A stretch of 64,000 bases of DNA. Source: a virus. The stretch spans positions 1 to 64,000 of the IMG/VR virus record IMGVR_UViG_3300042554_002381; one strand, written 5' to 3'. This document shows, one piece after another, positions 2,430 through 35,595 of this stretch (position 1 is its first letter; every line of letters begins with the position of its first letter). The position numbers and the translations under genes are program-made. The notes under the pieces were generated by a model. It saw nothing but the letters and a program-made list of their open reading frames with translations. It did not search any database and had not been told where the DNA came from.

Positions 2430-2911
2430 TTCCAGTGATTGTTGTCTCTTTCAAAGTAAAACTCTAATGGTTCAACGTTGTGGTCATAGTAAAAACCTAC
2501 CACATCGCTTTGAAACTTGCTGTGTACGTTCTCAAACAAAGCTGCTGTGACTACTTTGAAGCCCATGTCAATAAGGTGGTTGGCAAAAAAGTTATAGTTA
2601 CCACCGGTGATTACCCCTGCTTCTACCAGGACTACTGTCTCAAAAGGAAAAAACTCAAAGCAGGTGCGGTTGGCAAACTGCTTGCGGTAAGGTTCAGGAT
2701 CCTCGTCAGGATAAGGCACCTCCACACACACTATGTCCAACATTTCTCCTCCCTGACTCAAATGGTGCGCTATGTGCATGGCTGCTGTAGCGCTGTAGTC
2801 TGGACTGACCATGGCTACTGCTGCTTTGCCTGGCACCAGACCTTCTTTGTTTTGAAGCATCTGGCAGACTTTGACCAGGGCATCCCACTCTTTCTCTCTG
2901 GTGACGTACAT
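2426..2911 (-). CDS. PRTase-fold-like protein, function uncertain (161 aa)
   Basis: A 161-residue alpha/beta protein. The segment VVLVEAGVITGGNYNF near residues 92-107 resembles the PRPP-binding loop of phosphoribosyltransferases (hydrophobic strand, two acidic residues, then TGG). Here one of the usual two acidic residues is lost (VEAG rather than VDDV). An upstream strand IVCVEVPYPDEDPEP would fit the preceding beta-alpha-beta unit. It may be a degenerate PRTase-like nucleotide-binding protein. It starts just inside the leftward block and couples by ATGA to the next gene. Confidence 0.6.
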   Translation of the reverse strand: MYVTREKEWDALVKVCQMLQNKEGLVPGKAAVAMVSPDYSATAAMHIAHHLSQGGEMLDIVCVEVPYPDEDPEPYRKQFANRTCFEFFPFETVVLVEAGVITGGNYNFFANHLIDMGFKVVTAALFENVHSKFQSDVVGFYYDHNVEPLEFYFERDNNHWK

Positions 2912-2920
2912 AAATCAAGT

Positions 2921-3295
2921 TTATTTAAGGTGGTTTTTTTGCAGGTACTGGTACAAGGAGCGCACAGAATAACAGATAGGTTTTCCTTTACTGTCATGCG
3001 CTCCATAACCATCGTGTTCTTCAGAAACAACCAGGTTTCCTTCATTGTCCCGATGGTACAAAGGCCCCTTCCACTTTTTCTTGCCCCACTCGTTCTCATA
3101 GATAAACCAGCTGATCCACTCTAAACCTTCCTCTGTGTAGTAGCAGCCCATGGAACGCATTAGCATCTCTTCAAGGACGCTGCTCAGCTCATAAGGACTT
3201 TCTATAAGATTCATGCCTATTTTATCCAAAGCCCTAATGTTCTCAGTGCCCTTTTTATAGATGTGCAAAATGCTCTTAAAGTCTTGATACTGCAT
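2921..3295 (-). CDS. First gene of leftward operon, unknown function (124 aa)
   Basis: A 124-residue protein, rich in aromatic and charged residues (WISWFIYENEWGKKKW around residues 60-75), ending in a YSVRSLYQYLQKNHLK helix. It is a plausible small phage early protein; I do not recognise a fold. It is the promoter-proximal gene of the leftward block: the candidate minus-strand promoter -7 element lies 20 bases upstream of its start. Confidence 0.75.
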   Translation of the reverse strand: MQYQDFKSILHIYKKGTENIRALDKIGMNLIESPYELSSVLEEMLMRSMGCYYTEEGLEWISWFIYENEWGKKKWKGPLYHRDNEGNLVVSEEHDGYGAHDSKGKPICYSVRSLYQYLQKNHLK

Positions 3296-3315
3296 GATGT
3301 GGAATAACTTCTCTA

Positions 3316-3346
3316 CAAATATACAGACAAATTTGTAGAAGTTAAA
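3316..3346 (-). promoter_or_regulatory. Leftward Bacteroidota-type promoter
   Basis: On the minus strand TTTA (3346-3343) lies 19 bases upstream of TATATTTG (3323-3316), matching the Bacteroidota primary-sigma pattern TTTG-N19/20-TAnnTTTG with one mismatch in the -33 box. It sits directly in front of the gene starting at 3295 and would drive the leftward block. Confidence 0.65.
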
Positions 3347-3363
3347 CTTTTGAAGTATATTTG
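3332..3363 (+). promoter_or_regulatory. Rightward Bacteroidota-type promoter
   Basis: TTTG at 3332-3335, a 20-base spacer and TATATTTG at 3356-3363 match the Bacteroidota promoter consensus exactly. It lies 38 bases upstream of the gene at 3402 and is the first rightward promoter of the window. Confidence 0.75.
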
Positions 3364-3401
3364 TAGTGTAGAAACTCTATAAAATGTAAACCCCAACTCC
3401 T

Positions 3402-3623
3402 ATGTCACAAAACCAAGAAGACAGAGAACCCACCAAAGAAGAGGTAATTGCCTGGTACAAAGAGCAAATTGAGCTGGCAGAGCTGCGCCACAAGCTTGCA
3501 GAGCTTCAGAGCAAAGCTGTACAGGAAGAGGCCAAGCGCCTGCAGGCTATGGCAATCATTGCTCAATTCAAGACTCCTCTAAACAGCAACGAGGATGATG
3601 CAGAGTCTGAAAACGCACACTGA
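3402..3623 (+). CDS. Small coiled-coil protein (73 aa)
   Basis: A 73-residue, highly charged protein. Residues about 12-55 form a continuous heptad-like helix (EQIELAELRHKLAELQSKAV), and the C-terminal tail is acidic. It is the first gene after the rightward promoter, and its start is preceded by AAACCCCAACTCCT. No family is recognised; the composition suggests a small oligomeric helical protein. Confidence 0.75.
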   Translation: MSQNQEDREPTKEEVIAWYKEQIELAELRHKLAELQSKAVQEEAKRLQAMAIIAQFKTPLNSNEDDAESENAH

Positions 3624-3636
3624 AAAACCAAATAGC

Positions 3637-3666
3637 AGAAGTTTAACCCCCTTAGATTAAACTTCT
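3637..3666 (+). other. 10-bp hairpin upstream of tRNA-Thr
   Basis: AGAAGTTTAA at 3637-3646 and TTAAACTTCT at 3657-3666 are perfect reverse complements around a 10-base loop (CCCCCTTAGA). No run of T follows (CAGATTTCC), so this is not a classic terminator. It could be a processing signal in front of the tRNA or an operator-like site, since related AAGTT/AACTT arms recur at 3339 and 38044. Confidence 0.55.
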
Positions 3667-3693
3667 CAGATTTCCATGTTCCTTGAAAACCTA

Positions 3694-3766
3694 GCCACTT
3701 TAGCTCAGCTGGTAGAGCGACTGATTTGTAATCAGTAGGTCGTGGGTTCAATTCCTACAAGTGGCT
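3694..3766 (+). tRNA. tRNA-Thr (anticodon UGU)
   Basis: A 73-base complete cloverleaf. The acceptor stem GCCACTT pairs with AAGTGGC. The D-arm is TAGCTCAGCTGGTAGAGC, the anticodon stem ACTGA/TCAGT encloses the loop TTTGTAA with anticodon TGT (reads ACA), and the T-arm has GTTCAATTC. The discriminator base is U and the CCA end is not encoded. It is transcribed with the small genes on either side. Confidence 0.95.
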
Positions 3767-3795
3767 CTAATTTCTCTTAAACCAACTCCAACCCT

Positions 3796-4086
3796 ATGTC
3801 AAAACCCTTTAAAACACTACTTGGAACCAGGATCTTGTTAAACAAACCTGACAAACCAGAGTCTGTCATTCAGCTTTCACCGGAAGCAGAAGCTGAACTA
3901 GAACGTGAAATGATGCAAAAGTGGACTATGCTGGAAGTTTTTGCTACAGGTGATGAAGTCACGCATGTAGTTCCTGGCGACAAAGTCTATGTTCCTACCC
4001 AATACTTGCAGCATGCAGATGTAGTCCAGTTAGATGACAGCATCAAACTCATGATTGCAGAGCGCGACATTGCCATTGTATGGTAA
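3796..4086 (+). CDS. GroES-like co-chaperonin
   Basis: A 96-residue protein with the outline of a Cpn10/GroES barrel. It has an N-terminal strand KPFKTLLGTRILLNKP (compare the GroES start 'KPLGDRVLV'), a mobile-loop-length polar insert with many Glu, then LEVFATGDEVTHVVPGDKVYV (compare 'VVAVG....VKVGDRVLF') and a closing AERDIAIVW (compare 'ESDILAIV'). Length is typical of GroES (about 95 aa). Phage co-chaperonins such as T4 gp31 work with host GroEL to fold the capsid protein; the same role is inferred here. It sits between two tRNA genes upstream of the head module, with an AACCAACTCCAACCCT leader. Confidence 0.75.
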   Translation: MSKPFKTLLGTRILLNKPDKPESVIQLSPEAEAELEREMMQKWTMLEVFATGDEVTHVVPGDKVYVPTQYLQHADVVQLDDSIKLMIAERDIAIVW

Positions 4087-9522: not shown

Positions 9523-12252
9523 ATGCCTAAAGTATACAACGCACTACAGCTCAAGAATGGAGCTAAGGTAGACCATAACAGAATGGGCACCTTGACCCAA
9601 CCTGTGCAGTTTTTGAACAGAAAAGACAAAGACGAAGCATGGGGCGCGTGGAACATGGACTGGTTGGAAATGCAAGGTCTTAAGCAGATTCGCAGAAACG
9701 CCCGCAGGTTGTTAAAAAACTACAAGCTGGCTAATGGTATCATTGACAAGACAGACTACATTGTAGAAGAAGACAATGAAGTAGCAGATTTGATTGACGT
9801 GTTGACCAAACAAGATGAGTCAGCTTTTGAACTAAAGTTTTTTCCCATTATTCCCAACGTTATCAACGTAATGTGTGGGGAGTTTGCTAAGCGCAATGAC
9901 AAGATTACCTATAGAGCAGTAGATGATCTGTCTTATAATGAAATGATGGAAGCTAAGCGAATGATGGTGGAGGAAGTTCTGGTGCGCCAGGCGGAGGTCA
10001 AGATGCAACAGACCATTGAGGCTATGGGTCTGAACATGGAAGATGAAGAGCAGGCTGCTCAGGCACAGCAAATGATGTCGCCAGAAAGCCTCAAGTCTCT
10101 GCCAGAAATTGAGGAGTTCTTCAAGAAAGATTACCGTTCCATGGTAGAAGAATGGGCTACACACCAACATGAGGTGGACGAAGAGCGTTTTACCATGAAA
10201 GAATTAGAGAACCTCGCTTTTAAAGACATGCTCATTGCTGATCGCGAGTTCTGGCATTTCAAGATGAATGAAGATGATTACGAGGTAGAGCTTTGGAACC
10301 CAGTGCTTACTTTTTACCATAAGTCTCCTGAGGCTAGGTACATATCACAGTCAAACTGGGTAGGCCGTGTAGATTTAATGACTATTGCTGATGTCATTGA
10401 CAAGTATGGTTACATGATGACAGACGAGGAGCTTGCCTCTTTAGAGGCGATCTACCCAGTGCATTCAGCAGGTTACCTTATCCCAGGACTGCAAAATGAT
10501 GGTTCTTTTTATGATGCTACGCGTTCTCATGAGTGGAATACACAAGGTCCATCTTTAGGAATGCGGCAGTTTTTAAGTGCGCGTGATGCATTTATGAACA
10601 CTGGCGATGATATCATCATGAAAATTGTAAATGAGTCTGAAAGTGTTCAAGATTTTCAAGACATCAGTCTTCTGAGAGTTACGACTTGCTACTGGAAAAG
10701 CCAGCGTATGGTGGGTCATCTTTCTAAAGTAGACGAGAATGGTGAGCTTACTGATATGATTGTTAATGAGAACTACAAGATTACCACTAAACCCCTGTAT
10801 GACACTTCAGTACTTAAGAAAAAAAGTCGTGAGAACCTTGTTTTTGGTGAACATATTGATTGGATATGGATCAATGAAGTTTGGGGAGGTGTTAAGGTTG
10901 GTCCCAACAGACCTGCATTCTTTGGCAATAATGACACTTTTGGATTTCAGCCACTGTATCTAAACGTAAAACCCTTGCGCTTTCAGTTTAAGGGTGACTT
11001 TACATTGTATGGCTGCAAGCTGCCGGTGGAAGGTGCTGTGTTTACAGAACGCAACACCAAGTCTATGTCATTGGTAGATAAGATGAAACCCTACCAGATT
11101 GGATACAACCTGGTTAATAACCAGATTGCTGACATTCTGATTGACGAGCTTGGCACAGTAATTATGCTGGATCAGAACGCTCTGCCACGTCACTCCATGG
11201 GAGAGGATTGGGGCAAAAACAACTACGCTAAGGCGTATGTGGCCATGAAGAACTTTCAGATGTTGCCGCTAGACACATCTATCACCAACACAGAAAACGC
11301 ACTGAACTTTCAGCACTACCAGGTTCTTAACCTTGAGCAGACGCAGCGCCTTATGTCAAGGGTACAACTGGCCAGCTACTTTAAGAACCAGTGCTTTGAG
11401 TCTATAGGTATTTCACAGCAGCGTCTGGGTGCAGTAAACGCACAGGAAACTGCCCAGGGTATTGAGCAGGCTATCAACATGAGTTACTCACAGACAGAGG
11501 TGTATTTTACGCAGCACTCTGAATACCTGATGCCGCGCGTACATCAGATGCGCACAGATCTTTCACAGTACTATCACTCTAATCGTCCTTCACTGCGTTT
11601 GCAGTATGTGACATCTATGGATGAAAAGGTAAACTTTCAGATGAATGGCACAGAATTACTGGCCCGCGAGCTGAATATCTTTATCTCTACCAAGGTCAAC
11701 CAGCGCCAGGTTATCGAACAGATCAGAAGTCTTGCCATCAACAACAACACTTCTGGCGCTTCTATCTATGATTTGGGTAACATTGTCAAGGCTGACTCCA
11801 TGGCTGAGATTACTCATGTCATGAAAGGTATTGAAGAGAAAACTACCAGGGCCAAGATGCAGGAAACAGAAGCCTTGCAGCAAACAGAACAGATGCGTCA
11901 ACAAGCTGAAACAGAGCGTCTTGAAGCTAAGTTACGTTTTGAAGCTGAGCAAAACGCCCTGGATCGTGAGACTCAAGAGCGCGTTGCAGAAATCAGAGCT
12001 GCAGGTTACACTGCCATGAACGATCGCGACATGAACCAGCAGAACGACTACATTGACACTTTGGAATATCTTGACAAGAAAAACGCAAAAGAAACTGATC
12101 AGGCCATTGCCAGAGATCGCGAGTTAAATCGCACTGTTACAGAACAGAAAAAACTAGAGCTTAAGCGTCAAGAATTACTCTCTAAAGAGCGCATTGCTGA
12201 GAAAGAATTGCAAGTTGCGCGTACTAATAAAAACAAATATGACAAAAAGTAA
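9523..12252 (+). CDS. Portal protein
   Basis: A 909-residue protein directly after TerL, the usual portal slot. It is acidic, with long helices throughout, a 'stem/wing'-sized body and a C-terminal tail of about 150 residues made almost wholly of Glu/Gln/Arg-rich coiled coil (KMQETEALQQTEQMRQQAET from about residue 785), which would form the long portal barrel seen in P22- and crAss-type portals. The identification rests on position, size and fold-like features rather than a short motif. It forms the 12-fold DNA gate of the head. Confidence 0.85.
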   Translation: MPKVYNALQLKNGAKVDHNRMGTLTQPVQFLNRKDKDEAWGAWNMDWLEMQGLKQIRRNARRLLKNYKLANGIIDKTDYIVEEDNEVADLIDVLTKQDESAFELKFFPIIPNVINVMCGEFAKRNDKITYRAVDDLSYNEMMEAKRMMVEEVLVRQAEVKMQQTIEAMGLNMEDEEQAAQAQQMMSPESLKSLPEIEEFFKKDYRSMVEEWATHQHEVDEERFTMKELENLAFKDMLIADREFWHFKMNEDDYEVELWNPVLTFYHKSPEARYISQSNWVGRVDLMTIADVIDKYGYMMTDEELASLEAIYPVHSAGYLIPGLQNDGSFYDATRSHEWNTQGPSLGMRQFLSARDAFMNTGDDIIMKIVNESESVQDFQDISLLRVTTCYWKSQRMVGHLSKVDENGELTDMIVNENYKITTKPLYDTSVLKKKSRENLVFGEHIDWIWINEVWGGVKVGPNRPAFFGNNDTFGFQPLYLNVKPLRFQFKGDFTLYGCKLPVEGAVFTERNTKSMSLVDKMKPYQIGYNLVNNQIADILIDELGTVIMLDQNALPRHSMGEDWGKNNYAKAYVAMKNFQMLPLDTSITNTENALNFQHYQVLNLEQTQRLMSRVQLASYFKNQCFESIGISQQRLGAVNAQETAQGIEQAINMSYSQTEVYFTQHSEYLMPRVHQMRTDLSQYYHSNRPSLRLQYVTSMDEKVNFQMNGTELLARELNIFISTKVNQRQVIEQIRSLAINNNTSGASIYDLGNIVKADSMAEITHVMKGIEEKTTRAKMQETEALQQTEQMRQQAETERLEAKLRFEAEQNALDRETQERVAEIRAAGYTAMNDRDMNQQNDYIDTLEYLDKKNAKETDQAIARDRELNRTVTEQKKLELKRQELLSKERIAEKELQVARTNKNKYDKK

Positions 12253-12371
12253 AAGTACTATAGCGATATAGTGCAAAATATTTTATGTCATACATCTGCC
12301 AGATGTAAATCTTAGAGGTTTATTTGGTAGATTATATATGAAGAAGAAAAACAACCAACTTAAACCTACTT
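12253..12371. promoter_or_regulatory. Portal-scaffold intergenic region with inverted repeats
   Basis: This 119-base gap contains a 6-bp hairpin (ACTATA/TATAGT around GCGA, 12257-12272), a perfect 17-base palindrome TACATCTGCCAGATGTA at 12291-12307, and, overlapping its right arm, GTAAATCTTAGAGG (12305-12318), which resembles the GTAAATT promoter motif found before other genes. A poor TTTATTTG -7-like box follows at 12319-12326. The combination suggests a regulated promoter or an mRNA-processing site between portal and scaffold. Confidence 0.45.
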
Positions 12372-13622
12372 ATGGATAGTAACAACCAACAAACATCTGT
12401 ATCCAGCGTAAGTCTTGACAGTATTGATGATTTTTTACCAATGCCAGGAGCTGAAAGCGTTGTAACCGCAGATGATGATCAAAGCTCAAAACCAGGATTC
12501 TTTTCTAAGGAAGGTTCTCCAGATCTAGGGTTTCTTGATGAAAACCAAAATGATGGCGATGATCCTGATGGCAAAGAAAAAACTCCAAATGCTGCAACAA
12601 CTCAGGCAGCTATTGCTGAGTTAGACGCAGATTTAGAAGATGATGACGAGGATTCTGCCTCAAAACAGAAACCTGGTCGCAAGAAGATTGACAAAAGTGG
12701 ACTGGTAGAAACATTCTCCAAACTTTTTGAAGAAGGCATACTAGTTCCTTTTGAAGATGAAAAACCACTGGAGGAATACTCAGTAAAGGATTGGAAAGAG
12801 TTGATCTCTGCCAACCTGGAAGAAAGAGAGAGATCTCTGAGAGAACAAACTCCAAAAGAGTTCTTTGAATCGTTACCTCAAGAGTTGCAGTATGCTGCAG
12901 AATATGTAGCAAAGGGCGGCACTGACATCAAGGGGTTATTTAGGGCACTTGCTCAGACTGAGGAAGTGCGTGAACTTAACCCTGCGACACCTGAGCACCA
13001 GGAGGTTATTGTAAGACAGTACTTACAAGCCACTGGATTTGGCAATGGTGACGCGGAATTGATGGAAGAACAAGTCCAAGAGTGGTTGGAATCAGGGATC
13101 ATTGCAAAAAAAGCACAGCAGTTCAAGCCAAAACTTGATGCCATGCAAGAAGAAGTGATCCAATCCAAGCTTCAGCAACAAGAGCAGTTCCGTCAGGAGC
13201 AGCAGCGTAAAAAGGAAGAGTACATGGAAAACATCTACAACACCTTAAAACCTGCTGAAGTTAACGGTATCAAGCTGGACGCCAAGCGTCAGAAGTTCCT
13301 CTGGGAGGAGCTGACAACAGCCAAGTACCAAAGCATGACTGGACGCCCTACAAACCTGTTGGGCAAGCTCTTAGAAGACCACCAATTTGGAAAAACCCCC
13401 CGCTATGACCTTATTGCTGAAACTCTTTGGTTGCTATCTGATCCTGATGATTACAAGGAAAATATCAGAAAGCAAGCTAAAAACGAGGTGACACAGGACA
13501 CTGTCAGAAAACTAAAAACTGAAGAAGCACGCAAAATCGCGTCCAACGTCAGAGAAGAGGAAGAAGACAAAGCACCTGTGAGAAAGATTCCACGACCTGC
13601 TGCAAACATTTTTAAACGATAA
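12372..13622 (+). CDS. Scaffold-like head assembly protein
   Basis: A 416-residue very acidic protein between portal and capsid protein, the position of scaffolds. Residues 1-110 are Asp/Ser-rich and probably disordered (DADLEDDDEDSASKQK). Residues about 240-300 are Gln/Glu-rich coiled coil (QSKLQQQEQFRQEQQRKKEE), and the C-terminus is basic (VRKIPRPAANIFKR), as expected for a capsid-binding tail. No protease motif is seen. The scaffold role is inferred from position and composition. Confidence 0.7.
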   Translation: MDSNNQQTSVSSVSLDSIDDFLPMPGAESVVTADDDQSSKPGFFSKEGSPDLGFLDENQNDGDDPDGKEKTPNAATTQAAIAELDADLEDDDEDSASKQKPGRKKIDKSGLVETFSKLFEEGILVPFEDEKPLEEYSVKDWKELISANLEERERSLREQTPKEFFESLPQELQYAAEYVAKGGTDIKGLFRALAQTEEVRELNPATPEHQEVIVRQYLQATGFGNGDAELMEEQVQEWLESGIIAKKAQQFKPKLDAMQEEVIQSKLQQQEQFRQEQQRKKEEYMENIYNTLKPAEVNGIKLDAKRQKFLWEELTTAKYQSMTGRPTNLLGKLLEDHQFGKTPRYDLIAETLWLLSDPDDYKENIRKQAKNEVTQDTVRKLKTEEARKIASNVREEEEDKAPVRKIPRPAANIFKR

Positions 13623-17275: not shown

Positions 17276-17718
17276 TGGAAACATCTTTAGCTACTTATAG
17301 ACTTAAGCGTCCCATGGCAACGCCTGTTGCTGATAGTTTGGAGGGCAAAACAGCAGCTCTTGTATCAGAATTGATGAACGCTTCTGTATCTACCCACAAA
17401 CTTCATCTGAAGATAACAGGGCCTGGTTCATATGCTGCCCATACTGCACTGGCTTCTTTTTATGAAGGACTTCCAGGTATGGTTGACAGTATTGCTGAAG
17501 GTTTTCAGGGCGCACGTGAAATGCTTCTTGATTGTTCTTCAGAAAAATCACCAAGGTCTTTGTATTCTGTAGAAGATTGTGTAAATTATATGAGAGAGCT
17601 CTATACAATGGTCAATGAGTTACAGACAGTAATGCCTTACTCAGAGATTGTAAATGATCTTGATCTAATCAAGAGTCTGGTCAATTCAACCAAGTATAAA
17701 CTCTTGTTCTTACAATAA
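17275..17718 (+). CDS. Dps/ferritin-like protein
   Basis: A 147-residue four-helix-type protein. Residues 44-75 (HLKITGPGSYAAH, then TALASFYEGL, then VDSIAE) match the Dps core motif H-x5-G-x6-H ... D-x3-E. His44, His56, Asp71 and Glu75 have the spacings 12, 15 and 4 found between E. coli Dps His51, His63, Asp78 and Glu82, the ferroxidase ligands; the Asp67 equivalent is Ala60 here. The protein is shorter than cellular Dps at the N-terminus. Similar small proteins are known in Bacteroidota phages. Its position inside the head operon, coupled to the preceding gene by TAATG, suggests it is a virion or assembly component that kept the Dps fold; iron oxidation is possible but unproven. Confidence 0.75.
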   Translation: METSLATYRLKRPMATPVADSLEGKTAALVSELMNASVSTHKLHLKITGPGSYAAHTALASFYEGLPGMVDSIAEGFQGAREMLLDCSSEKSPRSLYSVEDCVNYMRELYTMVNELQTVMPYSEIVNDLDLIKSLVNSTKYKLLFLQ

Positions 17719-17767
17719 ACAACCCTTTAACCCTTTTTTTTCTTTTAACCCCTAATCTTTTAACAAA

Positions 17768-19123
17768 ATGGCTTATTTTCCCCACGCATTTCAAAAAATG
17801 CTTGTTGGAACCGCTGGTTTCAACACTACTCCTGGCAGCACTCTTACGTTGACTGCTGGCCAAATTGGCGTTGTCAAAGCTTCTGACCACCAAATTCAAA
17901 ACCTTGGAAGCACTCCTACTTATGGAAACACGCCTCTCATCTATCTTGCTCAGGGTAGTTTTCACACTACCGACAAGATTGGTCCTTTCCATGGTGGATA
18001 CAAAGAGACTGTAAAGTCAAAAGGCATCAACCCAAAGTATGTCAGTGCTTTTTACGTTACTGAGCCTGCTGCCCCTGTAAATGAGGTTGTTGGCGTATCT
18101 GTACTTAACTGTACAAAGATTGCATGCGACACTACTTATCGTTTGCGTCTTGATGTAAAAGGTTCGCCAGCACTGCGTTTTCTGACTCATAACTTGTATC
18201 AGACGCTTGATGCAAAAACTCCTTGCTGTGATTCAAGCAACAACAATGCAGATCCTGTAGGTGTATTGCTTCAGTGGAAAGATCAGATCAACGAGTCTCC
18301 TATCGTGAAGGACTTTATCAGCGCAAAAGTTTTCAACTTTAAAGTTGGAGGTTTTGCTGGCGCTGCTACTACTAATAGCACTACATTGACCATTGACGAC
18401 ACGTCTGGCGCAGGTGGGTCTGCTCCTGCAGGGCTTGCTGTCGGTCAAATGATCACTGGTGCTGGTATTCCACAAAACACCTTTATTACTGCTGTTTCCG
18501 GTGGTACACTAACCTTGAGCAAAGCTGCTACAGTTGCTGGTGCTACTGTTGCTTTGAAAGTATACGAGGAAGTTTTGACTTCTAGTTATACTCTTGAAAC
18601 AGGTGCTTCTGCTCCTGATACCAATGACGCAATGTTGGTTTTGACTGGTGCCTATGTTGACACTACATTTGGCAACTGCTCTTTCTCTCCAATGGACCAC
18701 TATGAGCTGGAGCCTATTCACATCTACGCATCTGTTGTAGATACAGAAGGCAATCCTTGCGAAACTTCTTGTTTTGAAGTGGCTGAATTACAAGGTGGTT
18801 ATCAAGGCAAAGGCTTTGGTGAAACATTGATTCGCGAACTCATTCTTTCTAAGCGTTATGCCCAGGAGCCATTCCAAACTGATCCCCGCATGCGCGAAGT
18901 ATTGGATGACACTACATTGTCTGATTTGAGCCGCAGTACTCGTTACTTTGCTTATCACATTCTGCACAGTGTACCCCGCACAAGCAACCCATCTGGAATG
19001 ATGGATGCTGACCAGTATTTGGTAAAAGTTGTTGTGTCTGCTCGGAGCACTCCTTTTGAGACCTACATGAACGCTTTGCTAACCAGTGCCGGCAATCACG
19101 TACAACTTGCAGTACAGCTTTAA
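17768..19123 (+). CDS. Major structural protein with inserted beta domain (451 aa)
   Basis: A 451-residue structural protein. The N-terminus (MAYFPHAFQKMLVGTAGF) and a Thr/Gly-rich beta body suit an abundant virion component. Residues about 200-270 form an inserted beta domain (TTLTIDDTSGAGGS, VGQMITGAGIP, GGTLTLSKAAT) of the kind used as surface decoration. The C-terminal half has the HYELEPIHIYASVVDTEGNP and RYAQEPFQTDPRMREV segments. Its 49-base leader has no G at all, and it is followed by a strong terminator, both consistent with high independent expression. Function within the virion is unknown; auxiliary capsid or collar are the best guesses. Confidence 0.75.
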   Translation: MAYFPHAFQKMLVGTAGFNTTPGSTLTLTAGQIGVVKASDHQIQNLGSTPTYGNTPLIYLAQGSFHTTDKIGPFHGGYKETVKSKGINPKYVSAFYVTEPAAPVNEVVGVSVLNCTKIACDTTYRLRLDVKGSPALRFLTHNLYQTLDAKTPCCDSSNNNADPVGVLLQWKDQINESPIVKDFISAKVFNFKVGGFAGAATTNSTTLTIDDTSGAGGSAPAGLAVGQMITGAGIPQNTFITAVSGGTLTLSKAATVAGATVALKVYEEVLTSSYTLETGASAPDTNDAMLVLTGAYVDTTFGNCSFSPMDHYELEPIHIYASVVDTEGNPCETSCFEVAELQGGYQGKGFGETLIRELILSKRYAQEPFQTDPRMREVLDDTTLSDLSRSTRYFAYHILHSVPRTSNPSGMMDADQYLVKVVVSARSTPFETYMNALLTSAGNHVQLAVQL

Positions 19124-19824: not shown

Positions 19825-20001
19825 ATGTGCCCAAATTGTCACACAAAACTTTCTTGCAGTTGTCAGTTGAAAACTGCATCAAACGGAACTCAAGTTTGCT
19901 CAAATTGCATTACTGCTTATGAGCAAAGTTTAAAGCAAATTGAGAATAAGAGTTCTTCAGACAGCTTGCAAAGTATTTATCCTCTTAAGACAACATCCTA
20001 A
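19825..20001 (+). CDS. Small Cys-rich zinc-binding protein (58 aa)
   Basis: A 58-residue protein beginning MCPNCHTKLSCSCQLKTASN and continuing GTQVCSNCI, with C-x2-C, C-x-C and C-x2-C pairs enough for one or two zinc sites, then a charged helix. It is preceded by AACCAACAACCAACAAAAAT, the common leader type, and its stop overlaps the next start (TAATG). Its place between structural genes and its coupling support it as real. Likely a small virion or assembly factor. Confidence 0.75.
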   Translation: MCPNCHTKLSCSCQLKTASNGTQVCSNCITAYEQSLKQIENKSSSDSLQSIYPLKTTS

Positions 20002-20222
20002 TGAACCTGGCATCTGTTAGCATTAATAGACTATTTGCTGATGCCGTTTATGCTGCATACAGGAAGAAGCGTTACGGCATTAAAAAATGCAGGGTAACGT
20101 ATAGCGCTGACATGTTGAGTGATCTCAAAGAGATTCATAAAAGAGCGTTAGAGATGAAATCTTGTGACAGGAACTTTTGTTGTGGGCTTTCTACCATTGA
20201 AGAAAAAATTAAGACTTTGTAA
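20001..20222 (+). CDS. Small basic protein (73 aa)
   Basis: A 73-residue Lys/Arg-rich protein (AAYRKKRYGIKKCRVTYS) with a Cys pair in FCCGL near the C-terminus. It is linked by TAATG overlaps to both neighbours, so its translation is coupled to the fibre genes. Function not recognised. Confidence 0.7.
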   Translation: MNLASVSINRLFADAVYAAYRKKRYGIKKCRVTYSADMLSDLKEIHKRALEMKSCDRNFCCGLSTIEEKIKTL

Positions 20223-21811
20223 TGATACCTGTCAATACTAATACTTCTGTAAAGGCAAAGGACGCATGCATGCCTGTGTCATCTACATGTGTTATCTGGA
20301 ATGGTCCAGACATACCTTGCATTAATCTTTGCCAAGGAGATTCTATTGACATTGTGTTGCATCAACTTGCTGAACTACTTTGTGAGAGCACAACAGGTGT
20401 TATTGATGTGACGTCTCTTGACTTTGCATGTCTTGTTGAACAAAATCAGCAAAATCCTGATACGTTACTTGAAGTATTGCAGGCTTTGATAAACAAAATC
20501 TGCGATATTGAAGATAATTGCTGTGGTGGTGAAGTAGGACCTGCACCGGTTACACCAATACCACTGCCGTCATGTCTTTATTTCACCCAAAATGGAGATC
20601 AGGTAACCCAGTTACTTCCAAACGCGTACAGCGCATATCTTGCTGACAGGATATGCACAATACTTACTACCATTGCGAGTGTACAGTCAGCGCTTACATC
20701 TCTTACCACAAGAGTTACAGCTATTGAAAATACGTTGGAGGGAATAGGAGGGGGGACTCCTGCGAGTATAACAGTTACTACACAGTGTGCAAGTGGCAAC
20801 TCGCCAGGGTTGGTACTTCCTATTGCACAAGCTTTTTCTAATTTTGAGCAAAAATTTTGCCAGCTGCATTCTGTGCTAGGCAGTCTTTCATCATTAAACG
20901 CTGCCATCAACCTGGAATGTCCAGATCTTGACCAAGCTAATCAGCTCTGCGACACAGAGCAGACAATGTCTCAGTTGCCTGGTTGGGTGTCAAATCCAAC
21001 CACTATTGCTAGCACAATTGTCAACATGTGGTTAACTATCTGTGACATGCGTTGCGCAATGCAAAATTTGATTGGTGGAGGCGGTACAGAATGTGTGCCA
21101 CTTCCTCCTACTAACGTGCAAATTGCTGAACTCTATGCAAATGGTTGCAAGGTTACATGGAATCACCCACAAACAGGTTCTTTTGAAGATCCTGTTGCTT
21201 ATGAAGTCACAATAACAGAGTGGAATGGAACAACTACTGTTGGCGCTCCAATTGCTTCTGCTCAGTTAAGTCATCCTGCAACAGAGTTTATATTTCAAAA
21301 CTTAAACGCGGATCCTGTCAAAAATTACATTGTTGAGGTTTATGCGGCTTACAGTTGCGGTGATTCTTCAAAAGCATTTGTTGTGGGTAAGGTAAAACTA
21401 AGCTCAATTCAGTACATATTGAATGTTGCTGATCAAGCAACTACTGCACAAATTACATACCCTTGCGATAATCATCAGAATTTGCCTGCAATACAGCGAG
21501 CTACAACAATTACATTGTACAATCCTGCAAATAATCAAGTAGCTATAAACAACGGAGTATCAATTACAGCAGTGTTGAGATTTGCTGTTACTGGTGATTG
21601 TCCCAACTCTGCTACAGAAGATGTTTCAGTAAACATTCTTACTGGACAGTCTTCAGCAACATACACTTACATTGGAGAGCGTATGGTAAAATGTGGTCAA
21701 GATCCCTGCACGCCAGAGATCAAAGCATTCCTTTGTGTTGTTTCGCTCAGTTCTACGGCTGTAGCATTACATCCTTCAGTTCCTTTATGTCAGCCACCTG
21801 CAAACGAATAA
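20222..21811 (+). CDS. Fibre-type protein with FN3 domain (529 aa)
   Basis: A 529-residue Cys-rich beta protein. Residues about 15-60 carry the CVIWNGPDIPCINLCQGDSI module that also opens the protein at 21816. Residues 120-290 alternate helical (TSLTTRVTAIENTLEG) and Cys-containing loops. Residues about 297-395 form an intact FN3 domain (PLPPTNVQIAEL, then GCKVTWNHP, then VAYEVTITEW, then NYIVEVYAAYSC). The C-terminal 130 residues form another beta domain. The make-up suits a head or tail fibre involved in host or mucin attachment. It is the only intact A-to-B FN3 junction of this cluster. Confidence 0.75.
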   Translation: MIPVNTNTSVKAKDACMPVSSTCVIWNGPDIPCINLCQGDSIDIVLHQLAELLCESTTGVIDVTSLDFACLVEQNQQNPDTLLEVLQALINKICDIEDNCCGGEVGPAPVTPIPLPSCLYFTQNGDQVTQLLPNAYSAYLADRICTILTTIASVQSALTSLTTRVTAIENTLEGIGGGTPASITVTTQCASGNSPGLVLPIAQAFSNFEQKFCQLHSVLGSLSSLNAAINLECPDLDQANQLCDTEQTMSQLPGWVSNPTTIASTIVNMWLTICDMRCAMQNLIGGGGTECVPLPPTNVQIAELYANGCKVTWNHPQTGSFEDPVAYEVTITEWNGTTTVGAPIASAQLSHPATEFIFQNLNADPVKNYIVEVYAAYSCGDSSKAFVVGKVKLSSIQYILNVADQATTAQITYPCDNHQNLPAIQRATTITLYNPANNQVAINNGVSITAVLRFAVTGDCPNSATEDVSVNILTGQSSATYTYIGERMVKCGQDPCTPEIKAFLCVVSLSSTAVALHPSVPLCQPPANE

Positions 21812-21815
21812 TAAA

Positions 21816-22100
21816 ATGTATCCTAATCAAAATTGTCAGCCTTGTCAGCCTGAGTGTCCTCCAGTAGAGGTTCCATTGCCACCTGCTTGTACGGGAGAAC
21901 CATGCGAGGAGGTAGTTACAGGTCTTTGCGTAAAGTACACAGGGCCAAATATACCATGTGTAGGTATTACAACTAATATGACATTTAATCAGGTAGTGCA
22001 GCTTCTTGCAGCAAAAATCTGTGAATGTTGTGAGGGCGATCCTCCGCCACCACCTTCTTGTCCTGCTCCAGTGTCTCTTACAGCTTCTGCTGTACAGTAA
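21816..22100 (+). CDS. Short fibre-type protein ending in an FN3 A-strand (94 aa)
   Basis: A 94-residue protein made of a Pro/Cys-rich start (QNCQPCQPECPPVEVPLPP), the module LCVKYTGPNIPCVGITTNMT shared with the 20222 protein, a Pro-rich linker (GDPPPPPSCPAP) and the final VSLTASAVQ. The last 13 residues (CPAPVSLTASAVQ) look like the A-strand that begins an FN3 domain, yet the frame stops there. The rest of such a domain begins the next ORF, in another frame 34 bases later. Confidence 0.75.
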   Translation: MYPNQNCQPCQPECPPVEVPLPPACTGEPCEEVVTGLCVKYTGPNIPCVGITTNMTFNQVVQLLAAKICECCEGDPPPPPSCPAPVSLTASAVQ

Positions 22101-22134
22101 TATTATTTCAAAAAATTTAAAATCATAAACACTT

Positions 22135-22701
22135 ATGTCAAACATCTCAATTAGTTGGACTCCAGGTGGAGGCTCCAATATTACTGGTCAGCAGGTTCAA
22201 CGTAAGACACCTTCTACCAGCTTTACAACAATAGCAACTGTTGGACCAACTGTAAACAGCTATACTGACACTACAGTTCTTGACAATGTAGTTTACATTT
22301 ACAGAGTTTTGTCAATTTGCACAACTGGAGGCCCTACTGCTGGAAATGAAGACTGTTCAGGAGGACTGGTTTGCCCCGCAGGAATTACTGCAACTCCCTC
22401 TGGAAATGTTGTTACATTTTCTCTTCCTGCGCTTGGAGACGGTGTGCAATATGATGTAGTAAGAATTTATCAAGGTCCAAATACATCAAGTCCGTTGGTT
22501 CATACACAAACATTGAACATAAATGGTCCAACAACATTTAATGTAACACTTTTATATTCAACATCTTACTTCTATCAGGTTGTCTTAGAAGCACCTTCAT
22601 GTCCTGAAATGTTCACTCTCATCTGTGGTGGAAACTGCACAACTGGCCCTCAACCCACATGTCCTGCTCCAACAAATTTGACAGCTGTTCTTACAGACTA
22701 A
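22135..22701 (+). CDS. FN3-type protein lacking its first strand (188 aa)
   Basis: A 188-residue beta protein. It opens directly with an FN3 B-strand (MSNISISWTPGGGSNITGQQ), followed by the C, E and F strand pattern (TVNSYTDTTVLDNVVYIYRV). A second beta domain follows (GITATPSGNVVTFSLP). The C-terminus CPAPTNLTAVLTD is again an isolated A-strand. The A-strand that would complete the first domain sits at the C-terminus of the preceding ORF. An in-frame TAA lies two codons before the ATG, so this start is real and there is no overlap for frameshifting. Confidence 0.75.
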   Translation: MSNISISWTPGGGSNITGQQVQRKTPSTSFTTIATVGPTVNSYTDTTVLDNVVYIYRVLSICTTGGPTAGNEDCSGGLVCPAGITATPSGNVVTFSLPALGDGVQYDVVRIYQGPNTSSPLVHTQTLNINGPTTFNVTLLYSTSYFYQVVLEAPSCPEMFTLICGGNCTTGPQPTCPAPTNLTAVLTD

Positions 22702-22718
22702 TGTACAATATTTGAACT

Positions 22719-23513
22719 ATGCCAACGCCACAACTTAATATCAATTTTACACCTGTTGCTGGTGCGACAGGGTATACAGTGTGTCATAGACCACAGATAA
22801 CACCTTTGCCAACATATGAATGCACTTCTGTAAACGCAGTTGGTCTTACTCTACCTATTGTTGTTACATCATACAACAATAATAGTCTTCAGTATAGTAC
22901 CAATTATGATGTAACGGTGCAGGCTATTTGTAATAATGGTTTGTCAAGTTCTGTTGTGTCAGCAATGGCGTTAAAAATAGAACCTCAACCTCCAACAGGT
23001 TTTTGCTATGATGTTAATCTTTTTCAAGAAATAACTCAAGTGTACCCTGGATCTCAGATTCGATACACTCCTCCTGGAGGATCTTTGACAAACGTAGACA
23101 TTTCTGTCTTGCCCTATAACATGAATGGGTTTTATCAGATTAATCTTTGCAGTGAAACACCTGTCATAACTGTTGATAACCAAGGAAACCCTGTTACATA
23201 CACAACAAACGGGTCAGGAATAACAGGAGGCTCTGTGGTTTGTACTCAATCAACTGATTGTGGACAGCTTCTGTACAATGTGCATACTAACGTAGGTCTT
23301 GGAAATGGTAGTGAAGCATGCAGTAACCAAAATCAAACTGTCTACTCTAACTGTCCTATGTTTGGAATTTCACATGTGGGCTGCTGCCTTTATTACGATA
23401 ACGCTGGGCAAGTGCCTGTTACAGGAATGACAAAGTTCTGGATTAATGGGGTGCTATATGATTTAGACCCTACTCAAGGATGCATCATAGGACCTGCTGC
23501 AGTTCAGTGTTAA
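22719..23513 (+). CDS. FN3-type fibre protein, end of cluster (264 aa)
   Basis: A 264-residue beta protein. It begins with a B-strand (MPTPQLNINFTPVAGATGYT), followed by SYNNNSLQYSTNYDVTVQAI, an FN3 domain lacking its own A-strand. The C-terminal half is a Cys-rich domain (GCCLYYDNAGQVPVTGMTKF, ending IGPAAVQC). It is followed by a terminator. It is most likely the distal, receptor-facing member of the fibre cluster, an inference from gene order. Confidence 0.75.
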   Translation: MPTPQLNINFTPVAGATGYTVCHRPQITPLPTYECTSVNAVGLTLPIVVTSYNNNSLQYSTNYDVTVQAICNNGLSSSVVSAMALKIEPQPPTGFCYDVNLFQEITQVYPGSQIRYTPPGGSLTNVDISVLPYNMNGFYQINLCSETPVITVDNQGNPVTYTTNGSGITGGSVVCTQSTDCGQLLYNVHTNVGLGNGSEACSNQNQTVYSNCPMFGISHVGCCLYYDNAGQVPVTGMTKFWINGVLYDLDPTQGCIIGPAAVQC

Positions 23514-23571
23514 CACGAAAAAAAATATCATTGCACTGGTTTGTTGGTTTTCCAGTAATATGATGAGGGAG

Positions 23572-23603
23572 CCCCTGGTCAAAAGCCAGGGGTCTTCTTT
23601 TTT
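23572..23603 (+). terminator. Intrinsic terminator closing the fibre module
   Basis: CCCCTGG (23572-23578) pairs with CCAGGGG (23586-23592) around TCAAAAG, followed by TCTTCTTTTTT. A weaker 5-bp hairpin (ACTGG/CCAGT) lies upstream at about 23535-23556. Confidence 0.88.
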
Positions 23604-25669: not shown

Positions 25670-26341
25670 ATGATTACTATATCAGAAGCTGTATCTAGAG
25701 TACGTAACCTCATAAAAGCTGTAAAGCAAGATGCTTTTGTGACTGACAGGTTTTTGTATTCGCTGATCATGAAGCATGCAAAACTTTTAATGCGTCGTCA
25801 GGATAATCTGAACCGCATTATGAAGTTTAACTCTGTTTTTCAAGTGCTTGACTTTGTTGAACTTATAGAAGTTGACCGGGCTCAAGCTGATTGTCACTGC
25901 ATTACTTCAGACTGTTACATTAAACGCACCAAAGAAAAGCTTCCAGCAATGATAGAAGGTTATTATGGACCTCTAATTAGGTCTGTAACCTCTATTGATT
26001 TTTCTGAGGAACTCACTCCTACTTTTCCTACTACTTATGAGCAGATGAGTCGCCAAAAAACCTTTAAGTACAACAAAAAGAAGTACTACTGGTTTCTTAA
26101 TGGTTATCTCTACTTTCCAAATCTTGAGTGGGATGCAATACGTATAGAAGGTGTATTTGAAGGTGACATTAGCCAATATAATTGCACAACTTCTGACAAT
26201 TGTGTTTCTGTTCAGAATAAGACTATCAATGTTCCTGAATTTTTGTTTTCAGAAATTGAACAACTTGTCTTGAGAGATCTTGGAGTAATGCTTCAAATAC
26301 CTCAGGATACTCAGCAAGATAACAGACACGTGGCACGATAA
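25670..26341 (+). CDS. Ring/adaptor-type protein (223 aa)
   Basis: A 223-residue protein. An N-terminal helical half (ITISEAVSRVRNLIKAVKQD, FLYSLIMKHAKLLMRRQDNL) is followed by a beta half (SVTSIDFSEELTPTFP, YWFLNGYLYFPNLEWDAIRI) and a final helix. The plan, helices then the 'NGYLYFPN...IRIEGVF' hairpin, is that of phage head-tail adaptors and crAss ring proteins. Most likely one of the rings between portal and muzzle. Confidence 0.7.
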   Translation: MITISEAVSRVRNLIKAVKQDAFVTDRFLYSLIMKHAKLLMRRQDNLNRIMKFNSVFQVLDFVELIEVDRAQADCHCITSDCYIKRTKEKLPAMIEGYYGPLIRSVTSIDFSEELTPTFPTTYEQMSRQKTFKYNKKKYYWFLNGYLYFPNLEWDAIRIEGVFEGDISQYNCTTSDNCVSVQNKTINVPEFLFSEIEQLVLRDLGVMLQIPQDTQQDNRHVAR

Positions 26342-30800: not shown

Positions 30801-32491
30801 ATGCGTATTTGTTTCACAATGGCGTGAGAGATTTCTTTACAGAGAGTGAGCTAAACATGGCGTACCGCGACTATGGTCAGGAACCTTATGAGAAATTCTA
30901 TGATGTTTATGGAAACTCCTTTAATGATTTGAGCACAATGTTCAGATCTGATCTTATTACAAAACCAATCTTTTTTAAGTATGACTTATCTCTCAGCGCA
31001 TCAAAACTTTTCAACAACTTTGCATCCTGGGCTTCTATACTCCCCCGTGACTACGACCCTAGGCTATACACCACATGCTTTGAATATTACCCTGATAGAG
31101 GAATATACTCCCTCCAACAGCAGTCTGGACTTAGACGAGATAATTGGAGAAATTATCTTGCGCTTAACTACAAAGACTTCTCAGGAAAAATAAGTACAAT
31201 TAAGAATCTTAATGCTACAGGCGCTATGATTCTTTTTGAGGATGCTGAACCTGTAATGTTTGTAGGTGTAGATCAGCTTCAGACAACAGGGGGTGTCAAA
31301 CTGACCATTGGTGATGGAGGTCTGTTTCAAGGAAACATGCAAGCCATTGTTAATGCTGATGACACCATTGGATATGCAAGTAGCATATCATCTAGAGCAG
31401 CGGTTAACACACCTCACGGTTTATTTTTTGTTTCACAGCAGTCTGGTAAAATCATGCAGTATGCTGGAGGAATAACAGAAATTTCACGCAATGGCATGAA
31501 ATTTTGGTTTAATGAAAATCTTCCTAGCAAGTTTTTAAAAGCATATCCTGAGTACCCATATTATGACAACCCTGTTGTAGGTATTGGTGTACAAGCTGTA
31601 TATGATCCACAATATGAACTTGTGTATTTTACAAAGCGTGACTATGTGCCGTTGAGAAACGACCTGCTGTTTGATGATCCTTCAGGTGTGCCTTACTTTG
31701 TGACTGTGTCTGGTTCTGGAAACAATCCTGTAATCACCAAAACTTTTTGCACTTTTGACAATCCTGCTGTATTCAAGCCTTGTCACTGGACAGTGAGTTA
31801 TGATCCTAAAAATAAGCAGTGGATAAGTTTTCATGATTGGAAACCAACTCTGTTAATACCTTCCTTTAGACATTTTCTTTCAGTCAAAGACAACGCTATT
31901 TGGAGGCACAACAACCGCTGGGATAGCTATTGCAATTACTATGGCACAAACTACGCATGGGAAATTGAGTATCCTGTAGTTACGCCAAACGCTGTAACCA
32001 CGCTTAGAAGTGTAGAATACACCTTGGATGTTTACAAGTTTTACAATGACGGGAAAGATTTTCATCATGTTATTGATGAGAATTTTGACAGGGCTGTGCT
32101 TTACAATTCTGAGCAGATTTCAGGACTTCTTAAATTAAGAATTAAAGGCAAGAATGCTCCTTTAGACTTGGTCAACTACCCACAAATTTCTACCAGTGGT
32201 ATAGAGATTCTGTTTTCAAAAGAAGAAAACAAGTATAGGTTTAATCAGTTTTGGGATGTTACAAAAGATCGCGGTGAGTTTAGCACTTCGCGCACTTCTA
32301 TGTGGAACACAGAGTGCGCTGGTGTTCAGAAGATTATCAACCCTGACTACATTGATTACTTTAAGTCACCACTTGAACACAAGAAGTTTCGTCACTATGG
32401 TAACAACATTATCTTGCGCAAAAATGTCAGCGGTGACAAAAAGATGGTATTAAAACTCACAAATAGCAAGCACATCAACAGCTCAAGGTGA
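27824..32491 (+). CDS. Muzzle/tail nozzle protein
   Basis: A 1555-residue protein. The opening ([40 protein letters not shown]) and repeated beta-strand blocks are typical of the crAss muzzle/P22 gp10-like nozzle proteins that form a beta-propeller around the tail exit. Residues about 640-725 are unusual: a long Ala/Gly/Val-rich hydrophobic stretch ([18 protein letters not shown], then [19 protein letters not shown]) that looks like one or two membrane helices. The later part is Tyr/Asn-rich beta. It is coupled to the zincin gene by ATGA. It forms the tail end and probably touches the outer membrane. Confidence 0.8.
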
Positions 32492-35400
32492 TGAAAAATA
32501 GCAAGGATATACTCATGAAGTTTATATCCACTCAAGGGTATAAGCGCAATAGTCCTGATGTTAACAGGCCACTAAATGTTATTCCTTCTGGTAGAATAAC
32601 CATGCAGGATGTTGACTTTCCTGTGAGAGGTGTTGATAACTTAGGTAATGAAATGTTCATGGTACCTGGAGGAGAGTATTTCTTTCCAGGCGATTATGTT
32701 GTAGAAACACCTATGATGCAACGTGGTGGGCAAACCAACAACGACCGTGAAATGGTAGAGGGTATTGCTGATATCCTTACCATGGTAAAAGATCCTGTAA
32801 ACCGTCGCCAGATTGCAGCAGAAATGGTGCGTGACTTCAAACGCGAAGGTGTAAAGTATGACCTTCAGGAGTTTCAGAAGATGGCTCAGGTGCGCATGCA
32901 AGGTGGCGGCCAGCTTACCATGGAAGATCTTAGACAAAGGGCTTTGGCACAATCTGCGCCAAGAGTAGACAACACCAGGATTGTTTCTCAAAAACGTATT
33001 GTAAAACAAGAAGCAGAAAATCCTCTTGACATATTTCCTTTTGTTAAAAACGTTGGTATAGATACAGGTATTGATCAGATACCATACGCAAGTGTTATGA
33101 TGGGTGCCAAAGCGCTGAATCAAGGAAGACCTTGGACAGCACTAAGTGAGTTTGCAAAAGTTCCTTTGGGATGGATTGGAGATGCTGGTATAAATGCACT
33201 TCAGGAAAATCCTACAAAATACAGTATTAATGCATTAGAAGATAGTGTGATACCTTTTGCAAGACTGGTTAAAGGTGCAAATTTTGGAACAGGTGAGTCT
33301 ATTGTCACTCGTGTAGGCAAACAAATTATGTCAAGTGGTGAAAAACCTGATTCAAAATGGTATGCACGCAGCTTTAACTTGCCAGGACTTTATGAAGCTG
33401 CGAAAACTTATGGTGTAGACAACAACACTTTTACAAAATTTGTTGAAGACAACTGGGAAAATGCAGGTGGTGACTACAAGCAAATACTTGAGTTAGCAAA
33501 AACAAATTTACTTAAAAAACAAAAAGGTGGTCAGCACGGTGGACTGGATCGTTGGTTTGCTGAAAAGTGGGTAGACATCAAAACAGGCAAAGAGTGTGGA
33601 AGACAAGAAGGTGAAAAGCGCGCGGGTTATCCTGCGTGCAGACCCTCAAAACGCGTCTCAGAAGACACACCCAAGACAACTTCTGAACTAAGCAGTTCAG
33701 AAAAAGAAAAGTTCAAGCGTTCTAAAACTTCAAGTGAAAGAATCTCCTACCAGCATAAGCGTAAGCAGGATGGTGGAGAGTGGCTTGACAAGTATGAGAA
33801 TACAAAGGGAAACAGACAGAAGGTTGACCAACTTTTTGGTCCACCTGCTGCCGGCAACGTAGACTATGTTCCTGCAGTAGAATCTGTAGTGGGAGGTTTT
33901 TCAGCAGGTCTTGCAAAAAGTGCATTAGCGCCTGTTGTAAAGTCAAACTTACAAAGTCTGCAAAAGTACATGGAGATGCAAGATAGTCCTTTTGCAAAAA
34001 TTGATCTTCCTGTTTTTAATGAGGCAAAGAACTGGTTAAACAAATATGACGAAGGTGGCGCTATTTATACTGTAAAAAAAGGTGATACTTTGAGCAAAAT
34101 TGCAGCTGAAAATAAAACCACTGTTAACAAAATTGTTCAGGCCAACAACATTAAGAATCCAAACATTATAGGCATTGACCAAAAACTTGTTATTCCTCAA
34201 GGTTCATCTGTAAACAATGCGCAAACAGGTAGTACTCAATATGTAGATTGGAGTGAAAAAAAGAAAAATCTTGACAGACTTAACAATTTACCTGATGAGC
34301 AACTGATAACAGGATTTTATAGCGACAAACCTGAACAAACATATCTTGTTGTAGACAAGAAAAACGCACAAATGAAAGTCTATAAAGGAGATAAGGTTGT
34401 AAAAACCTATGAAGTGGGTGTAGGCGCAAATCCTGGAGATGCTCAAACTGTAACAAAAATAGTTAATGGTAAAGCTGATTGGAGTGCTGGCAACAAATCA
34501 ACAGGAGCTGGTGCATACACTATCTCAAACATTGATCCCGCAAGTAAGGCATATTATGGCCTTCCATCTTTTAATTTGAAAAATGACAGAGGCATAGAAG
34601 TTGCAACTACTATTCACGGAACACCTGCAGGAAGAAGGTCAAGATTTGACAATAATAATGTGGAAGACAACAGAATGAGCTATGGTTGCATTAATGGAAA
34701 ATGTTTTGATCTGAAAGATTTACAACAGCATGTAGATATTGAGACACCTGTTTATGTATTACCTGAAGATGAAGGAAATCGTTTTCAAATTGTAGATGGA
34801 AAACCTGTTCTCAAGGTATCTGCTCAAAATCGCGCCAAATACAATAGTTACGTTGATGCTACAGGAAAAGTACAAAAAGGGCAAGGAGCAAATCAAAGTG
34901 TTAATACACTTTCATACAGTCCTATAAAAGCTGTTTTTGATGAAAACAAATTTAAAGAGAAAGTATTTTCTTGGAATGATTTAAATGATGAAAAAGAATA
35001 TGTGCAAACAACAAAACCTTTTTACAATGCTTTAGTGAAGTACAAACAAAGCATTATGAAAAATGCAAAAATTCCTTCAGATGTGTATAATGAACTTGCG
35101 CGAATGGCATTTGGCATTTATGGTACAGAATCTAATTTTGGAGACACTCACAGTACTGTTGGAAATTTTGCAAGAGCTAGTGCTAAATTCATAGATTCTA
35201 AAAACTCAAGTTCGCCAGACTACAAGTCAAAAGCTACTACTTATGGTGCAAACGAAGATTCAAGAAGTGTTGGTTTGACACAAATACGATGGAACTATTT
35301 GAATAAAGATGAAAAACAGGTTCTAAATTCTTTAGGTATTACATCAAACATGGATTTTATGGATCCTGAAAAAGCAGCAATAGGTACTGTTGCATTGTTA

Positions 35401-35595
35401 GGTGTAAGATATAATCAGCAGTTAACAGATGATCAAAAACGCGATATTTGGTCACACTTACCAAGTAAATGGAACAGGCGTGGAAATTACAGTGATCGTG
35501 TAAAACAAAATGCAAGCTATCTTAATTTTAAAGAAGCAACCAATAAACGTCAAACAGGTGGTCAGACAAATTGGTTGGACAACTATACCGACTAA
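32491..35595 (+). CDS. Virion peptidoglycan-processing protein: LysM + L,D-transpeptidase + transglycosylase
   Basis: A protein of about 1034 residues (residues below are numbered from a GTG at 32488, one codon upstream; the ATG at 32491 overlaps the previous TGA and is the likelier start). Residues 354-425 hold a [12 protein letters not shown]...[10 protein letters not shown]...TPKT module (DUF5872-type, also seen in giant viruses). A LysM domain follows at 524-571 ([20 protein letters not shown]). A YkuD/L,D-transpeptidase domain at about 617-760 has His710 (HGTP) and SYGCIN with Cys734. The C-terminal lysozyme/SLT-like domain has Glu881 (GTESNFG) and SVGLTQIRW near 929. GG motifs ([20 protein letters not shown]) recur. 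It is a cell-wall-opening virion protein. Confidence 0.85.

Follow-up and report, generated by a model that had tools for sequence, protein, structure and literature searches.

The window, that is, the whole 64,000-nucleotide stretch of DNA analyzed here, is part of a 107-kb virus record. For its terminase, portal, and major head protein, the matching PHROGs (6681, 6547, and 11589) are of crAss type, and the terminase is about 25% identical to those of crAss-like cr55_1 and of the Flavobacterium FpV phages; on these sequence matches we treat the virus as crAss-like, without placing it as a member of that group. The module described in this work has the gene for the major head protein on its 5′ side and, on its 3′ side, a gene (25670–26341) that matches a virion structural family (phrog_9863). 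In phi14:2, a cultured crAss-like phage, the corresponding stretch includes several genes whose annotation as structural comes from MS/MS; these neighbors have no convincing sequence homology to the module, so we infer both its fiber role and the virion location of its products, the latter from synteny only.

The module is encoded on the + strand. Its first gene (the 20222 gene, 20222–21811) encodes a 529-aa protein. An anchor-like region (STCVIWNGPDIPCI) occupies its N-terminus, and its single intact FN3 domain (Pfam fn3 at residues 295–382, profile positions 2–75) provides the comparison for the domains that follow. Two small proteins (19825–20001 and 20001–20222), one of them Cys-rich, precede this gene and recur in most of the relatives that were read. 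The next ORF, X (21816–22100, 94 aa), consists of a Cys/Pro-rich anchor-like region (CVKYTGPNIPCVGI) and a C-terminal ‘donor tail’ that corresponds to an FN3 A strand (CPAPVSLTASAVQ, 22059–22097). After an AT-rich gap of 34 nt between the stop codon of X and the start codon of Y (22101–22134; 39 nt in the orthologue in L003/L004), ORF Y (22135–22701, 188 aa) encodes a ‘headless’ FN3 domain, that is, one with strands B–G, followed by a second FN3-like domain and by its own donor tail, again an FN3 A strand (CPAPTNLTAVLTD, 22660–22698). A gap of 17 nt (22702–22718) separates Y from ORF Z (22719–23513, 264 aa), in which a headless FN3 domain is followed by a C-terminal domain with no donor tail. 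A terminator-like hairpin plus T-run 3′ of Z (23571–23603) is the probable end of the transcript.

The acceptor proteins open directly at FN3 strand B (N-termini MSNISISWTP for Y and MPTPQLNINFTP for Z). X and Z are in the same phase, from which Y is shifted by one; in-frame stop codons shortly 5′ of the acceptor ATGs (TAA at 22126–22128 for Y and TGA at 22713–22715 for Z) leave neither Y nor Z a possible earlier start. Our reading of the sequence and its ORFs agrees with the initial annotation on the positions, termini, and frames of X, Y, and Z, on the in-frame stop before the ATG at 22135, and on the intact junction in the 20222 protein. Its central observation, that FN3 domains are split twice at one A/B strand boundary, is borne out by the profile comparisons and by the relatives described below.

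Tails and heads as complementary parts of the FN3 profile

We searched Pfam with the heads of five acceptors, each alone and with the tail of the neighboring protein prepended. The match to fn3 (PF00041) begins at profile positions 16–17 for the heads alone and at positions 1–8 for the five tail-plus-head fusions. The score increases in each of the four pairs that match both ways (18.7 to 24.8, 20.4 to 25.5, 25.1 to 25.9, and 30.7 to 36.6 bits), and the remaining pair matches only when fused (15.8 bits); three of the five fusions reach the 25-bit cut-off for fn3. The second of these pairs is that of the window: Z alone matches from position 17, and Z with the tail of Y matches positions 2–75. 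The profile of Y likewise begins about 16–20 residues into solved single FN3 domains (e.g., 2fnb and 3teu). The spacing from the Cys in the tail to the Trp/Phe in strand B of the head is 18–20 residues in 44 of the 52 junctions measured; in looser intact FN3 candidates the same spacing peaks at 19–22. As judged from the profile, then, the tail is roughly fn3 positions 1–15, the stretch that is absent from the acceptor heads. Two features of donor strand complementation are found together in these proteins: a strand missing from one subunit (fn3 1–15) and a matching C-terminal strand on another.

We consider it likely that the products of X, Y, and Z are virion fiber proteins that are translated separately and then joined end to end by non-covalent donation of the A strand. 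The C-terminal tail of one subunit would supply FN3 strand A to the headless N-terminal FN3 domain of the next; filling of this slot would produce a continuous rod of tandem FN3 domains, X–Y–Z in this virus and X–Z in phages without Y. Z would end the chain as its cap because it has no donor tail.

To gather relatives of the module (about 240 loci), we scanned with the head protein, the 20222 protein, and the exonuclease-like gene as queries; from related viral contigs we curated 53 adjacent donor–acceptor junctions, which are not 53 independent events because related contigs recur. Comparison of the same loci in related phages, the check proposed in the initial annotation, establishes that the split is conserved and is not specific to the window: it is kept at the identical point in L004 (91–93% identical) and L013, the closest relatives, and it is found in dozens of other phages, including two that were identified through Y alone (L273 and L276). 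The window could have carried a broken copy of an ORF that is continuous in its relatives; this was rejected, since the relatives keep the split and those that are unsplit lack both halves and do not have this junction in an uninterrupted form. In a large group of relatives, the homologue of the 20222 protein has a donor A strand of its own at the C-terminus. A pattern scan of the rest of the genome from which the window is derived identified no further tail/head pair, and tblastn searches with the 20222 protein, Z, the Y of L140, and the X of L246 gave no matches in named phages. No tail/head pair occurs at the gene ends in the relevant stretches of phi14:2 and Fpv3, and neither a tail nor a head was seen in L252, the contig that was read among four MAG contigs from one genome-contig scan.

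Joint occurrence, selection, and predicted structure

A scripted census of 69 distinct phages identified 34 with both tails and acceptors, 31 with neither, three with donors only, and one with acceptors only. When the four discordant phages were read by eye, the census became 38 with both, 31 with neither, and none discordant: the acceptor pattern in the script had missed the heads of L013, L131, and L153, and its threshold had missed the tail of L149. Thus, after inspection, none of the 69 phages keeps tails without acceptors; about 15 of the 31 phages with neither half were read by eye, and the rest were classified by the script. A quick tree built from the 20222 homologue has eight changes in the tail/acceptor state, at least five of which are forced; the tree scores ‘has either half’ and so relies on the corrected labels, and five pairs are too few for a sign test to reach 0.05. 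On this tree, tail and acceptor have been gained or lost together at least five times.

Selection on the tail was estimated from within-family pairs, which are non-independent. In the first nine codons of the tail (the core) pN/pS is 0.33, and in the codons from the core to the stop it is 1.03; that is, the core is under purifying selection and the codons beyond it are neutral. This division was chosen after a first pass over the last 12–17 codons, in which core and post-core codons were mixed; there, several families gave values close to those for the complete gene, and other families gave higher ones (maximum 1.06). The X tail in the family of the window is under weaker constraint (pN/pS 0.58, few sequences).

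These observations bear on an explanation that assigns no function to the tails: they could be remnants of domain shuffling, in which recombination at the repeated CPAPxxLTA stretch leaves a useless A strand. The tails within one genome do resemble each other, and the modules gain and lose Y, as such shuffling would produce. A useless strand is, however, difficult to reconcile with a constrained core followed immediately by neutral codons, with a census in which tails never occur without acceptors, and with the persistence in L013/L014 of a Z that is only an 80-aa headless FN3 domain, and we regard this explanation as unlikely.

The strand might instead be donated within one protein or between its copies, so that the tail fills the N-terminal domain of its own chain (in cis) or of an identical chain (a homopolymer). 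Y has a tail as well as a headless head, the tails are alike, and TasA monomers are known to self-complement their donor site (PMC9674648). However, X and many homologues of the 20222 protein have a tail without a headless head, Z has a head without a tail, and phages that lack Y (L016 and L019) retain both the tail of X and the head of Z; donation of this type is, in our judgment, improbable.

Structure predictions were obtained with AlphaFold for fused chains in which the stop codons were read through; because the chains are covalently joined, these models favor an A–B hairpin. For the Y–linker–Z fusion of L013 (mean pLDDT 87.8), the tail is modeled as a strand (residues 175–182, block means about 81 and 72) that is followed by strand B (residues 190–196), and Foldseek aligns the model along arrays of three FN3 domains. 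For the X–linker–Y fusion of L004, a strand at residues 88–93 is modeled with low confidence (block mean pLDDT about 40–50, none >70). The headless domains (strands B–G) are modeled at pLDDT >90 without a donor, so AlphaFold provides no proof that they need strand A. This high confidence, together with the several acceptors that have no donor nearby, is what would be expected if the headless domains were already complete and the tails bound something else (e.g., the capsid). We find this reading quite doubtful, since tail and head are exactly complementary in the fn3 profile and are gained or lost jointly.

Separate translation and the arrangement of probable partners

At the 53 curated junctions, the gaps range from −1 to 85 nt, fall in all three phases (23/17/13), and are 83% A+T; the second residue of the acceptor is Ala in 29 of the 53. 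For 50 of the 53 acceptors, an in-frame stop codon occurs no more than 11 codons 5′ of the ATG, and mis-called acceptor starts were rejected on this basis. Orthologous gaps differ by indels; the gaps measure 1, 6, 8, and 13 nt in one family and 34 versus 39 nt in the family of the window. A further copy of the last sense codon that could serve for landing is present at 11 of the 53 junctions (13 expected), that is, without enrichment. The RNA at four junctions was folded and was not unusually stable (z-scores of −1.89, 0.59, −1.09, and 0.60); a structured take-off region of the type in T4 gene 60 was not found in these four. In L004 the last codon of X is changed from CAG to TAG; the L004 version of the 20222 gene (2493–4064) also ends six residues early by a CAG to TAG change. 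The 85-nt gap between donor and acceptor in L219 (7394–7478) contains an inverted repeat (gatagggtg...caccctatc) that resembles a hairpin.

From the gap lengths, phases, indels, landing codons, folds, and upstream stops, we conclude that the sequences argue strongly for translation of each ORF from its own ATG and make bypass or frameshifting very unlikely. Ribosomal bypass (the alternative offered in the initial annotation) or frameshifting that fuses the ORFs into one polypeptide would give back an FN3 domain of normal length and could point to a small hairpin 5′ of the stop codon of X in the window and L004, but it is strongly disfavored, to the point of being very improbable, by gap lengths that vary between orthologues and occur in all three phases, unmatched landing codons, unremarkable folds, the 85-nt gap in L219, and an intervening gene between donor and acceptor in L215, L237, and L146.

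In those three loci, an X-type gene separates the tail-bearing homologue of the 20222 gene from the headless gene; in the L140 group, too, an X-type gene directly follows the tail of Y, with headless genes located further on. The separated partners would fit separate proteins that meet after translation. Acceptors without an adjacent donor also occur (one at 18228 in L020, the Y that comes first in L209/L210, and several members of the L140 group), and where acceptors outnumber donors, the assignment of partners is a guess. In L020, two headless Z genes are in tandem (17687–18995), the first without a donor tail; these are possibly alternative caps.

Thus, donor strand complementation, as suggested in the initial annotation, is supported by completion of the fn3 profile, selection on the tail, co-occurrence, and an AlphaFold model of moderate confidence for one of the junctions; the binding itself, that is, the physical insertion of the strand, we infer, as we do the order of the chain and its place in the virion. 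The accompanying suggestion that the subunits are linked in order is only partly right, since some acceptors lack an adjacent donor. More tentatively, strand donation might build heteromeric phage fibers, with interchangeable FN3 subunits polymerizing in the cytoplasm by C-terminal A-strand donation and with no chaperone or usher; pairing in trans would then let X–(Y)n–Z chains and alternative caps be mixed from a gene cassette. We view this extension as possible rather than probable.

Relation to known systems and other domains at these loci

Strand donation itself is already known from pili and biofilm filaments. In the archaeal thread filament (Saci_0406/0405), donor strand complementation joins the subunits head-to-tail, and a putative cap subunit has only one half of the interface (PMC9715654), as we propose for Z. 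The thread, however, consists of one secreted pilin whose donor strand is N-terminal, and it is neither FN3 nor viral (PMC9715654); in the phage module, the donor is C-terminal, corresponds to FN3 strand A, and would join subunits encoded by different genes in a row. In the TasA fibers of Bacillus subtilis, a donated strand completes the β-sandwich of the next subunit and TapA is suggested to be the first donor; TasA differs in having an N-terminal donor, in forming a homopolymer, and in having a self-complemented monomer (PMC9674648). In chaperone-usher and type V pili, a strand from a neighbor completes an incomplete Ig-like fold (PMC5954841, PMC9715654), but these are secreted pilins that are assembled outside the cytoplasm, whereas the phage subunits are FN3 proteins. 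We noticed no secretion signal, and no periplasmic chaperone or outer-membrane usher among the annotated genes. As far as we have seen, archaeal threads, TasA, and type V and chaperone-usher pili work in the same way as the proposed module but are not homologous to it.

Two phage systems are also relevant. The head fibers of the crAss-like crAss001 virion contain gp21 and gp29, and the C-terminal domain of gp29 is Ig-like; no strand donation is described for these proteins (PMC10172136), and in the annotation table their genes are upstream of the gene for the major head protein, whereas the module in the window is downstream. In T4 gene 60, as at the phage junctions, a stop codon and a short gap interrupt what would be a single domain (PMC5009743); the junctions differ from gene 60 in having no matched take-off and landing codons, in varying in gap length and phase, and in having an ATG for each ORF. 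A full-text literature search, with subscription journals mostly outside its coverage, identified no earlier description of strand donation in phages or in FN3 domains. If our interpretation is correct, the module would represent a new way to link the subunits of a virion fiber and to swap its tips without gene fusion, with the FN3 domain cut and spread over neighboring phage genes; it would also provide a naturally evolved split-FN3 pair.

Other domains were observed in the relatives and elsewhere in the window. In L183, which has no split, the end of X (11596–13356) looks by eye like the C-terminal region of Z from L016, L019, and L020, as in an unsplit counterpart, an observation in favor of the proposed linkage. 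The same protein contains thrombospondin type 1 repeats (PF19028, E 2e-56), as does an X relative in L033 (17927–19609, E 9e-33); the presence of such repeats in several X relatives would suit an exposed adhesive protein. An 862-aa acceptor in L149 (3687–6275) has a headless FN3 domain followed by an Ig_3 domain. Finally, a GTG-started gene in the window (32488–35595) encodes a 1035-aa protein with LysM, DUF5872, and YkuD L,D-transpeptidase domains.
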